From positions 186,001 through 250,000 of the forward strand of contig NC_013939.1 in NCBI RefSeq assembly GCF_000010985.1: DNA of 64,000 bases, read 5' to 3'. Numbering within the stretch: the first letter of the stretch is position 1; every line of letters starts with the position of its first letter. Below, one piece after another: positions 27,479-43,157 of this stretch. Under the pieces are notes generated by a model. It worked only from the letters and a program-made list of their open reading frames with translations. It did no database searches and was not told where the DNA came from. Position numbers and translations under genes: made by a program. This stretch comes from Deferribacter desulfuricans SSM1 (lineage in GTDB: Bacteria > Chrysiogenota > Deferribacteres > Deferribacterales > Deferribacteraceae).

Positions 27479-29410
27479 ATGGAAAAAACTAAAGTTATTA
27501 CTGTTACAAGTGGAAAAGGTGGGGTTGGGAAGAGTAATTTTTCTTTAAATTTAGCATTATCAATTTCTAAACTTGGGAAAAAGGTTGCACTTCTTGATGC
27601 GGACTTAGCGTTGGGGAATGCAGACCTTTTGATTGGTAAAAAGCCTGAAAAGACTATTGCTGATATTGTTCTTAATGATTTTAAAATAGAAGATGTTTTG
27701 ATCGAAGATAAGCATTATCCAAATTTTGCTTTAATACCTGCAGGTAGTGGAATATTTGAGTTGACAAAATTATCTGGGAAAAAACGAAATCATTTATTAG
27801 GTGAAATAAAAAGATTAAGAGACCGTTTTGAATACTTAATTATTGATACTGGAGCTGGTATATCAAATGAGATATTATCCTTTGTGAAACTTGCAGATGA
27901 AGTTGTTGTTGTTATCTTGCCTGAAGTAACATCTATTAAGGATAGTTATTCTACGTTGAAGATTTTAAAAGAGAAGAATATTGTTAGAGAATTTAAGATC
28001 CTTATAAACAGAGCAAAATCAAAGGCTCAGGTACATAGTGTTTTTGAAAAATTCAGGGATACAGTAAAAAAGTTTTTACATTTAGATATAAATTTGCTTG
28101 GTTTTTTGCCAGAAGATGAGAATTTTGCAGAATCTGTCAACAGGCAAATACCTATTATCACTTTATATCCAAACTCCCCTACGTCAAAACTTTTTAAACA
28201 TTATGCAGAATATTTTGTTAACAATTCAAATCTAAAAGGTGTTGAAATAGATGCTTTATTTGATGATTTGATAAAGGAAAGTGCTGATAAGGAGTTTGTT
28301 TCAAGTAAAAATGAAGATAAGAAAGAGGTCGGGGAAGCTGTAGAGTCCAATTTTTTAGATTTTTATGTGGCTGAGAGTGAAAAGAAGATTGGTGATATAT
28401 TATATCAGTTAAATGAATTAAATAAGATAGTGAAAATACTTAAAAGGAAGGTTAAGTCAGAAGCGGTAACTGATAGTTATTTTGAAAATTTTTATATTGG
28501 TAAAGAACTTATTTTTGTTGAGAATAATATCAAACATTACACTTCAAAAATTGTAGGTTATGAGTTTGGAAAGTATCTGATTTGTACGACCAATAAGGAT
28601 ATTGATAAGCTTTTTGAAATTTATGATTATGTGACGGCAAGATATAGCTATGAAGATTATATTATAGAGTTTAAAGCTAAAATTTATGGTGAGTTAGAGT
28701 CTGTAAATTTGATATTGATAACGTATCCAAAAGATTATTTAATAACTAAACTTAGAGACTCAAAACGCATCAGCGTTCAAATACCTTGTAAAATAATATA
28801 CAAAAAGATTAAGCCACTTAATGGTATGATTCATGATTTAAGTTTAAATGGTGCATTGATTAGCACAAATTACCCATGTGATATTGGTGATATTTTAGAG
28901 CTAAATTTTGTATTACCAAATGGTAAAGAGATCAAAAATGTAAAAGCGATAATTAGAAATATAAGAGAGAAGAATCGCTATGGTGTATCCTTTGATGAGA
29001 TAGTTGGTATTAATAAGAAGAGATTGGAGCAGTTTATTGAATCGTATAGAAAACTATTTTCTAATCAGTACTTAGAAGATGGTAGAGATAAAATTAGTGG
29101 AGATTTGAAGGATTTTTCTTTCTTTGATTTAATACAGTTAACTTCTTCTTCTGCTAAAGACTATGTGATTGAAGTTTATTCAGATGATGTTGAAGGGAAA
29201 ATTTACATTAAAAATGGTGAAGTGATACATGCTACATGCAACGAAAAAATAGGTATAGATGCGTTTTATGAGCTTTCTTTGCTGAAAAGTGGTGAATTTT
29301 ATATGAGTGAATTTATGGGTGATGTGGATAGGACTATTAGTGAAAAAACAGATGTGCTATTATTGAATGCAGCTTATTACAACGATTCTGGGCAGAAAGA
29401 TGGGGGTTAG
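27479..29410 (+). CDS. MinD/FlhG-like ATPase fused to YcgR-N, PilZ and DUF4388 (PATAN-like) domains
   Basis: A 643-residue multidomain protein. Residues 1-250 are a MinD/ParA ATPase with deviant Walker A SGKGGVGKS (11-19), DADLALGNADLL and IIDTGAG; the style is that of FlhG/FleN rather than cell-division MinD. Residues about 255-330 are a charged linker with coiled coil. About 335-420 looks like the YcgR N-terminal domain. About 425-515 is PilZ with both c-di-GMP motifs, RDSKR (R426, R430) and DLSLNG (D453, S455, G458). About 535-625 matches DUF4388/PATAN (SGDLKDFSFFDLIQL, GKIYIKNGEVIHA). It probably links nucleotide-dependent membrane positioning to c-di-GMP. It is monocistronic or paired with the overlapping DUF167 gene; no flagellar or pilus genes are adjacent. 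Confidence 0.82.
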   Translation: MEKTKVITVTSGKGGVGKSNFSLNLALSISKLGKKVALLDADLALGNADLLIGKKPEKTIADIVLNDFKIEDVLIEDKHYPNFALIPAGSGIFELTKLSGKKRNHLLGEIKRLRDRFEYLIIDTGAGISNEILSFVKLADEVVVVILPEVTSIKDSYSTLKILKEKNIVREFKILINRAKSKAQVHSVFEKFRDTVKKFLHLDINLLGFLPEDENFAESVNRQIPIITLYPNSPTSKLFKHYAEYFVNNSNLKGVEIDALFDDLIKESADKEFVSSKNEDKKEVGEAVESNFLDFYVAESEKKIGDILYQLNELNKIVKILKRKVKSEAVTDSYFENFYIGKELIFVENNIKHYTSKIVGYEFGKYLICTTNKDIDKLFEIYDYVTARYSYEDYIIEFKAKIYGELESVNLILITYPKDYLITKLRDSKRISVQIPCKIIYKKIKPLNGMIHDLSLNGALISTNYPCDIGDILELNFVLPNGKEIKNVKAIIRNIREKNRYGVSFDEIVGINKKRLEQFIESYRKLFSNQYLEDGRDKISGDLKDFSFFDLIQLTSSSAKDYVIEVYSDDVEGKIYIKNGEVIHATCNEKIGIDAFYELSLLKSGEFYMSEFMGDVDRTISEKTDVLLLNAAYYNDSGQKDGG

Positions 29411-29648
29411 AATTACATTTTATATTCAGCCTGGTGCGAAAAAGACTGAAGTAGCCGGGGAATTTAATAATATGACAAAAATAAAGGTGGCTTCACCACC
29501 AGTTGATGGAGCAGCAAATAAGGAGCTTATAAAATTTTTGGCAAAGAAATTAGGTGTTTCAAAATCATCAGTTAAAATCGTTAGTGGTGAGAAAAGTAGG
29601 ATTAAAACGGTTGAATTTTTAGAAGACATTGATTTGTCTAAATTATAA
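29400..29648 (+). CDS. DUF167 family protein (YggU-like)
   Basis: An 82-residue protein of the UPF0235/DUF167 family: ITFYIQPGAKKTEV near the N-terminus, PPVDGAANKELIKFLAK in the middle and IVSGEKSRIKTV near the end. The ATG at 29400 gives the family N-terminus; it overlaps the end of the fusion gene by 11 bases. In proteobacteria the family often sits beside YggT, which is not here. Its function is not established. Confidence 0.88.
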   Translation: MGVRITFYIQPGAKKTEVAGEFNNMTKIKVASPPVDGAANKELIKFLAKKLGVSKSSVKIVSGEKSRIKTVEFLEDIDLSKL

Positions 29649-41432: not shown

Positions 41433-43157
41433 ATGAATGATAAGTTGATTGATCCAGTTGAGATTGCTGAGGATATTTTTTGGGTTGGACATGAATTGCC
41501 AGATGACCCTTTTCAATGCCATGTATATTTAATATTAAATGGGAAAGGTTCTATTTTAATCGATCCTGGTTCTAAGATAACTTTTAAATATGCATTAGAG
41601 AAGATTGAGCAGATAATACCCTTTTCGTATATAAAGTATTTTATATGTCAGCATCAAGATCCTGACATTACAGCATCCTTGGAAATCATAAGAGATCTTT
41701 TGATTAGAGATGATGCAGTTATTGTTAGCCATTGGAGAGCTATTGCTCTCTTAAAACATTACAACCTAAACATCCCTATGATATGTGTGGAAAAGGAAAA
41801 TTGGAAGTTAAACGCAGGTGGGAGAGAATTAGAGTTTATCTTTACACCATATTGTCATTTTCCTGGTGCTTTTTGTACTTATGATAAAAAAAGCAAAGTC
41901 CTATTTTCAAGTGATTTGTTTGGTGGATTTACAGATAGGTTCAAACTTTTTGCAGAAGATATTAATTATTTTGATTCAATAGCTGCCTTTCATGAACCCT
42001 ATATGCCATCAAAAGAGATTTTAGTACATAGTTTAAAAAAAATTGAACAGTATGATATTGATTTAATCGCTCCTCAACATGGATCAATTATTAGGAGAGA
42101 TTTGATAAAACCTATAATAAATAAAATGAAAAATCTTGATTGTGGGCTTTTTTTGCTTACGCAATCAAGTACTGAGTTGGAAAAGCTTAGAAAGCTGAAT
42201 AAATTCTTAAACGCTTTTTTGGAAACAATGGCAACTTATAAAGATTTTACCGAGCTTATTAGAGAGTTTGTTATAGAATTAAGGAGTGCTTTTGATTTTG
42301 ATAGTATTGAATTTTATACAGATTATAAAGGGACACTTTTATATTTTTTAGCTGAGACTCCATCAATATGGGAAAAAATCAAACAGCAAGAATATGTTAA
42401 AGATATTTTACAAATAAAAATGAGTGAGTACTATGAAAAGTACCCTAACTACTTATATGTAAGAAATGTTCTATATATTCCTATCCCTGAAATTGAAAGT
42501 GATAAAATTATTGCTGTTATGAAGTTATATTTAAAAGAGTCTATTGTGATTGATAATGATATTTTAGAAATTCTGAAAGAGGTTATAAATTTCTTAAGTA
42601 TAGCTTTTGAAAGAGAGTTTATCAGAAGAAAATTGATTGAAGAGCGAGAAAAATTTTATGAGATCTCTATACATGATACTTTAACAGGGTGTTATTCTAG
42701 ATATTATTTGAAAGAAACAATAAAGAGAGTTTTAGCGATACATGATAGAGGGGAAATAAGAAATGTTGGTATTGTAATGCTTGATATAGATGACTTTAAA
42801 AATATAAATGACACTTATGGGCACGATGTTGGGGATGAAGTGTTAAAAGTTATTGCAGATATTATTAAAAATGAGGTTAGAGTGGGTGACATCCCTGTTA
42901 GATATGGTGGTGAAGAGTTTATGATTGTTGCGGTGGTAAATGATATCAAAAGTGTTTATATGGTTGCAGAGAGGATTAGAACAAAACTTGAAGAATACAA
43001 ATGGGATGCACCGTTAGATAAGGAAAGAATTACTGCGAGTTTTGGTGTAGTACTTAGGAAAAAAGGGGAATCTTTTGAAGATGTAATTAAAAGAGTGGAT
43101 ATTAATTTGTATAAGGCTAAATCTGCTGGGAAAAATACTGTTATTTGCGAAGAATAA
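41433..43157 (+). CDS. Diguanylate cyclase with N-terminal flavodiiron-type metallo-beta-lactamase domain
   Basis: A 574-residue signalling protein. Residues 1-230 form an MBL-fold domain of the flavodiiron/ODP type. HQDPD (H74, D76, D78), H142 in PYCHFPG, D161 in SSDLFGG and H216 in PQHG match the diiron ligand spacing, while the flavodoxin domain of true FDPs is absent. Residues about 255-395 look like a GAF-type domain. Residues 405-572 are GGDEF with the intact active site GGEEF (492-496) and an RVGD inhibitory site (483-486) five residues before it, so c-di-GMP synthesis with product inhibition is expected. The diiron site could sense O2, NO or peroxide. No membrane segment is visible. 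Confidence 0.87.
   Translation: MNDKLIDPVEIAEDIFWVGHELPDDPFQCHVYLILNGKGSILIDPGSKITFKYALEKIEQIIPFSYIKYFICQHQDPDITASLEIIRDLLIRDDAVIVSHWRAIALLKHYNLNIPMICVEKENWKLNAGGRELEFIFTPYCHFPGAFCTYDKKSKVLFSSDLFGGFTDRFKLFAEDINYFDSIAAFHEPYMPSKEILVHSLKKIEQYDIDLIAPQHGSIIRRDLIKPIINKMKNLDCGLFLLTQSSTELEKLRKLNKFLNAFLETMATYKDFTELIREFVIELRSAFDFDSIEFYTDYKGTLLYFLAETPSIWEKIKQQEYVKDILQIKMSEYYEKYPNYLYVRNVLYIPIPEIESDKIIAVMKLYLKESIVIDNDILEILKEVINFLSIAFEREFIRRKLIEEREKFYEISIHDTLTGCYSRYYLKETIKRVLAIHDRGEIRNVGIVMLDIDDFKNINDTYGHDVGDEVLKVIADIIKNEVRVGDIPVRYGGEEFMIVAVVNDIKSVYMVAERIRTKLEEYKWDAPLDKERITASFGVVLRKKGESFEDVIKRVDINLYKAKSAGKNTVICEE

Follow-up and report, generated by a model that had tools for sequence, protein, structure and literature searches.

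FlhG carries an FlhF-activating motif, DQAxxLR, and ends in a C-terminal amphipathic helix, while YcgR and MotI are flagellar brakes. Control by c-di-GMP of the ParA/MinD ATPases that place cell-surface machines is known mainly via separate proteins, FleQ with FleN and BcsE with BcsQ. BcsQ is reported to be a MinD/FlhG-like subunit required for cellulose secretion, to form a complex with the c-di-GMP sensor BcsE (PMC7439463) and to localise to the pole (PMC9178275). The window analysed here, a 64,000-nucleotide stretch of the Deferribacter desulfuricans SSM1 genome (2,542,933 bases, of which the chromosome makes up 2,234,389), encodes a 643-residue protein (27479..29410, + strand) in which an FlhG-type ATPase, a YcgR-N/PilZ module and a DUF4388 domain are joined in one chain. 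Each of these domains is known; the single chain of all four is not described in the literature searched, where coverage was partial and searches for the domain combination returned nothing relevant; nor was it familiar to the earlier note as a characterised protein.

Domain architecture of the fusion

The fusion is a continuous open frame with full-length homologues, and is neither a chance product nor a frame artefact since its full length is conserved in ten other copies, at 37-61% identity to the window protein. It begins with a deviant Walker ATPase domain of FlhG/FleN type (residues 2-245; 27482..28213, +), to which the Pfam families AAA_31 (4-155, E=5e-19) and CbiA (7-226, E=1.5e-16) match above their curated cut-offs. 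The deviant Walker A, SGKGGVGKS, occupies residues 11-19 (27509..27535, +) and reads SGKGGVGK[ST] in 10/10 copies covering the site; like the DADLxLGN, ID-xAG and PE[VI]TSIKD blocks, it is intact in every copy that covers it. There follows a poorly conserved linker (residues 246-290; 28214..28348, +; mean identity to the window protein 19%), where pLDDT is mostly low and falls below 50 at 264-294, and then a long helix, a possible stalk or coiled coil (residues ~291-328; 28349..28462, +), which the AlphaFold2 model places at 293-328 with moderate confidence. Relative to FlhG/FleN, the fusion holds about 390 extra residues, which include the c-di-GMP module and DUF4388.

The c-di-GMP module consists of a YcgR-N (PilZNR-like) barrel (residues 335-424; 28481..28750, +) and a PilZ barrel with its C-terminal helix (residues 425-527; 28751..29059, +), both present in the model and in its fold matches. 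PilZ is found by Pfam at 425-521 (E=7.3e-13), above the curated cut-off. YcgR-N is the sole part that is weak by the window sequence alone, its PilZNR match at 347-417 (E=0.044) lying under the Pfam cut-off, but the domain is matched in 10/11 homologues (best E=1.9e-5), and the profile of the fusion family aligns with c-di-GMP-bound VCA0042 (E=1.3e-6) across both barrels and both ligand motifs. Among solved structures, the best fold matches of the model of residues 330-643 (mean pLDDT 81) are VCA0042, MotI/DgrA, PP4397 and YcgR, so that homologues and fold together support the domain. The chain closes with a DUF4388 (PATAN-like) domain (residues 538-637; 29090..29389, +), PATAN and DUF4388 being, we assume, the same domain; the match to PF14332 at 540-636 (E=5.1e-15) scores 56 bits against a curated cut-off of 25, and the domain is present in 10/11 homologues, the eleventh being cut by a contig end. 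The full model has a pTM of 0.43, at which the arrangement of the domains relative to one another cannot be read from it.

These results bear out the four-part architecture proposed in the earlier note, which had predicted PilZ near 425-515 and DUF4388 near 535-625 and had named an intact deviant Walker A, RDSKR and DLSLNG; these begin at residues 11, 426 and 453. The last two are the predicted c-di-GMP motifs. RxxxR (RDSKR, residues 426-430; 28754..28768, +) keeps R426 and R430 invariant in all eleven copies. DxSxxG (DLSLNG, residues 453-458; 28835..28852, +) is canonical in seven, including the window protein and the two Calditerrivibrio copies that lie in pel operons; N replaces S (DxNxxG) in the remaining four, the Calditerrivibrio copy-1 sequences (L031, L034, L035 and L036), while both copy-2 sequences are canonical. 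Judged from sequence, this substitution may possibly have changed ligand affinity after duplication. The window genome has 18 GGDEF and 4 PilZ matches, which indicates that c-di-GMP signalling is present and that the ligand can be supplied. Within the window itself, 12 kb from the fusion, a 574-residue open frame (41433-43157, +) contains a GGDEF domain (G000:C1:228669-229136) and is likely a diguanylate cyclase.

Relation to FlhG and distribution

A profile built from the eleven copies matches the FleN structure 5j1j best (E=2.6e-60), followed by Geobacillus FlhG (2.6e-54), with MinD weaker (about 1e-30), and Foldseek ranks the partners of the ATPase domain likewise, FleN 5j1j standing on top (E=4e-21). 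The NCBIfam MinD equivalog is not reached (148 bits, cut-off 212.9), nor is that for BcsQ (45 bits, cut-off 157.9). Identity as the cell-division protein MinD is thus rejected, and the ATPase, labelled 'MinD/FlhG-like' in the earlier note, lies closer to FlhG/FleN than to MinD.

Nor is the fusion the organism's only FlhG, as a separate FlhG is present in 9/9 genomes that carry the fusion. In the window genome the gene for this second protein (G000:C1:404231) comes after flhA- and flhF-like genes and before those for a flagellar-type sigma factor and chemotaxis; the protein bears DQAxxLR at its N-terminus, as do the FlhGs read from relatives in the order. The motif was not found in any fusion whose start is covered, the fusion opening directly at the first strand. 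Nor does the fusion end in a C-terminal amphipathic membrane helix: its ATPase runs instead into the linker, the long helix and YcgR-N, among which there may be an internal equivalent. The window copy lies between argC-like and lysA-like genes and not beside flhF. With three of the four FlhG features sought (DQAxxLR, the membrane helix and an flhF neighbour) not found, we refer to an FlhG-derived ATPase, not to FlhG. The loss of the motif and of the terminal helix indicates a repurposed FlhG paralogue and not a regulator of flagellar number, one that, on sequence grounds, has probably left the FlhF partnership behind; any positioning by the fusion would, for the same reason, need another anchor. 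In a tree of the ATPases a single branch separates the fusions from the FlhGs, but this branch is weakly supported (76/98) and joins long branches, so that the tree is only a loose guide to the exact origin of the fusion ATPase.

The fusion occurs in 9/51 genomes of the phylum, comprising all sampled members of three Deferribacterales families (two genomes in f1, four in f2 and three in f8), and in none of the other 42. The search across genomes for the same architecture, proposed in the earlier note, recovered the whole chain in eleven copies, of which two are truncated where their contigs end; two Calditerrivibrio genomes have two copies each. Beyond these families, searches of about 1,000 genomes, including 385 relatives across many families, gave no complete chain; matches in other phyla were to DUF4388 alone or to YcgR-N/PilZ proteins some 220 residues long, never the combination. 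On plasmids every match covered less than 80% of the query, and the best one was to the ATPase only. A scan of GTDB with two conserved peptides returned Deferribacterales alone. The architecture is therefore likely restricted to this order, a restriction that is not proved because the scan, being made with two short patterns, is narrow and can miss distant members and because the sampled phyla are not named. In two genomes of family f3 (G003 and G010) no FlhG-grade ATPase was found, the best match having an E of about 1e-13 to 1e-14, and flagella have possibly been lost there; a third f3 genome, G017, differs.

Genomic neighbourhoods and the Pel operon

The window copy is flanked by a divergent argC-like gene and by lysA-dapF-dapA-dapB. 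Its end is overlapped by 11 nt by a yggU-like gene (29400..29648, +), identified from its sequence and from a Pfam DUF167 match in the L029 orthologue. A yggU neighbour follows the fusion in 5/5 copies of families f1 and f8, and the gene is likely a co-translated partner. No bcs genes were found among the neighbours of the window copy, and these neighbours, being amino-acid genes and yggU, are uninformative as to a target. A second DUF4388 protein, of 342 residues, is encoded in the same genome as a fusion (L074:7999-9027), adjoining genes for FtsX-like, M23 peptidase, S41 peptidase and polysaccharide deacetylase proteins.

A different setting, the operon for the secreted biofilm exopolysaccharide Pel, is found in Calditerrivibrio. 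In one genome (L033 in G009) the gene order is PAS histidine kinase, fusion, pelC-like lipoprotein, pelD, pelE-like, pelF, pelG and pelA-like GH114. Starting with the fusion, adjacent genes overlap or lie less than 20 bases apart. Of these, pelF was recognised as DUF3492 (E=4e-80) and pelG at E=2e-131, and the names pelC and pelE are given from position and from the resemblance that these genes share with those of two other pel operons. In Calditerrivibrio sp. W28 (L032) a TPR protein, the fusion, pelC and pelD precede a contig end. Only these two fusion copies, both Calditerrivibrio copy 2, are linked to pel. Pel operons are seen in Calditerrivibrio (L032, L033) and in family f8 (L072, L073); those of the two f8 genomes, G008 and G021, have no fusion inside, and a mechanosensitive-channel-like gene precedes pelC in that of G008 (L072). 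Scored by pelD and pelG, pel genes are present in three genomes of the phylum, all of which carry the fusion somewhere. In four other fusion genomes, that of the window (G000), G001, G002 and G015, pelD and pelG were not found, which rules out a general Pel role as the sole role of the fusion.

The Pel-operon copy is the strongest functional clue. It suggests a link to a machine for exopolysaccharide or of the envelope, and need not imply a function in placing anything at the pole. It further suggests that c-di-GMP directly steers a cell-surface machine. In an alignment with the P. aeruginosa PelD structure (E=0.005), the PelD encoded at L033 has an RxxD conserved at the inhibitory site. Pel does not strictly require a further c-di-GMP sensor if PelD retains such a site of its own.

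A proposed c-di-GMP-responsive ATPase for an envelope machine

In our best reading, to which we give a probability of roughly one half, the fusion is an FlhG-type ATPase that was duplicated and repurposed; it would sense c-di-GMP directly and place or activate a cell-envelope machine. The conserved Walker residues suggest that the ATPase would dimerise with ATP and switch off upon hydrolysis, as FlhG/FleN do. Motifs and fold predict that c-di-GMP would bind the LRxxxR hinge and the DxSxxG surface where the YcgR-N and PilZ barrels face each other, and would reorient the two, as in VCA0042/YcgR. Transmitted through the long helix, this reorientation could set the state of the ATPase dimer or expose the C-terminal DUF4388, which, by analogy with the PATAN regulators, would dock on the envelope machine. 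High c-di-GMP would then lead the fusion to place or activate that machine. For Calditerrivibrio copy 2 the machine would most likely be the Pel exopolysaccharide exporter, in a role like that of BcsQ and BcsE in cellulose secretion, while the candidate targets of the Deferribacter copy are type IV pili, the flagellum and other envelope complexes. The earlier note had suggested that c-di-GMP directly controls positioning at the pole or membrane, which is likewise a hypothesis.

The FlhG/FleN ancestry of the ATPase clade and the resemblance of the sensor module to YcgR would suit a second flagellar regulator under c-di-GMP control, in which an FlhG paralogue acts on flagellar number or placement or as a brake in the manner of YcgR. 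We consider this unlikely, as flagellar genes are absent from the examined neighbours of every copy, the FlhF-activating motif is missing and each genome already has its separate FlhG. Pilus genes too are absent from the neighbours examined around every copy, and this weighs on the proposal, about as doubtful, that the fusion regulates type IV pili, in which DUF4388 would dock on PilB, the motor for extension, while the ATPase places the complex and PilZ reads c-di-GMP. That proposal draws on the reported action of PATAN regulators on the pilus motor PilB1 in cyanobacteria (PMC7690835) and on the pilA reported in Deferribacter (PMC13186404), although the link runs through one domain type only. 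It is improbable that the sensory domains are carried passively, c-di-GMP binding having been lost and the protein acting as a signal-independent assembly factor: the divergence of YcgR-N and the N for S in four Calditerrivibrio copies could be read so, yet RxxxR is kept throughout and the complete DxSxxG is retained in most copies, the window protein and both pel-linked ones among them.

A repurposed ATPase that would place or activate an envelope machine under c-di-GMP can be set beside several known systems. With FlhG/FleN, its best profile and fold match, the fusion shares the ATPase domain, the deviant Walker A and the IIDTGAG and PEVTSI-D blocks, but it has neither the DQAxxLR N-terminus nor the C-terminal membrane helix and lies outside the flagellar operon. 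Its YcgR-N and PilZ pair, with LRxxxR and DxSxxG, is that of YcgR, VCA0042 (PlzD) and MotI, which however are stand-alone flagellar brakes or receptors, whereas in the fusion the pair sits behind an ATPase. A DUF4388-type domain in a signalling output protein is likewise seen in the PATAN/DUF4388 response regulators PixE, PixG and LsiR, in which the partner is a CheY-like receiver and there is no ATPase or PilZ; our genome search found DUF4388 with a receiver-like partner in another phylum as well. PelD, encoded two genes downstream of the Calditerrivibrio fusion, is also a c-di-GMP receptor, that of Pel, but as a membrane protein with GAF and degenerate GGDEF domains its fold is unrelated. 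Since one chain from a thermophile carries the sensor, the ATPase and a probable docking domain, the coupling between them would be measurable directly in vitro, and the Pel-linked copy offers a testable output for it. A further parallel, by analogy only, is the E. coli-type cellulose system, in which a MinD/FlhG-like NTPase, BcsQ, works beside a c-di-GMP sensor, BcsE, in exopolysaccharide secretion (PMC7439463); there the two are separate proteins, the sensor is GGDEF-derived, the product is cellulose and not Pel, and the fusion's own Pfam match to BcsQ is weak. More tentatively than the general reading, the fusion might be the Deferribacterales counterpart of BcsQ/BcsE, an FlhG-type ATPase turned into a one-polypeptide, c-di-GMP-gated switch that selects the site at which Pel secretion or some other envelope machine is placed or licensed.
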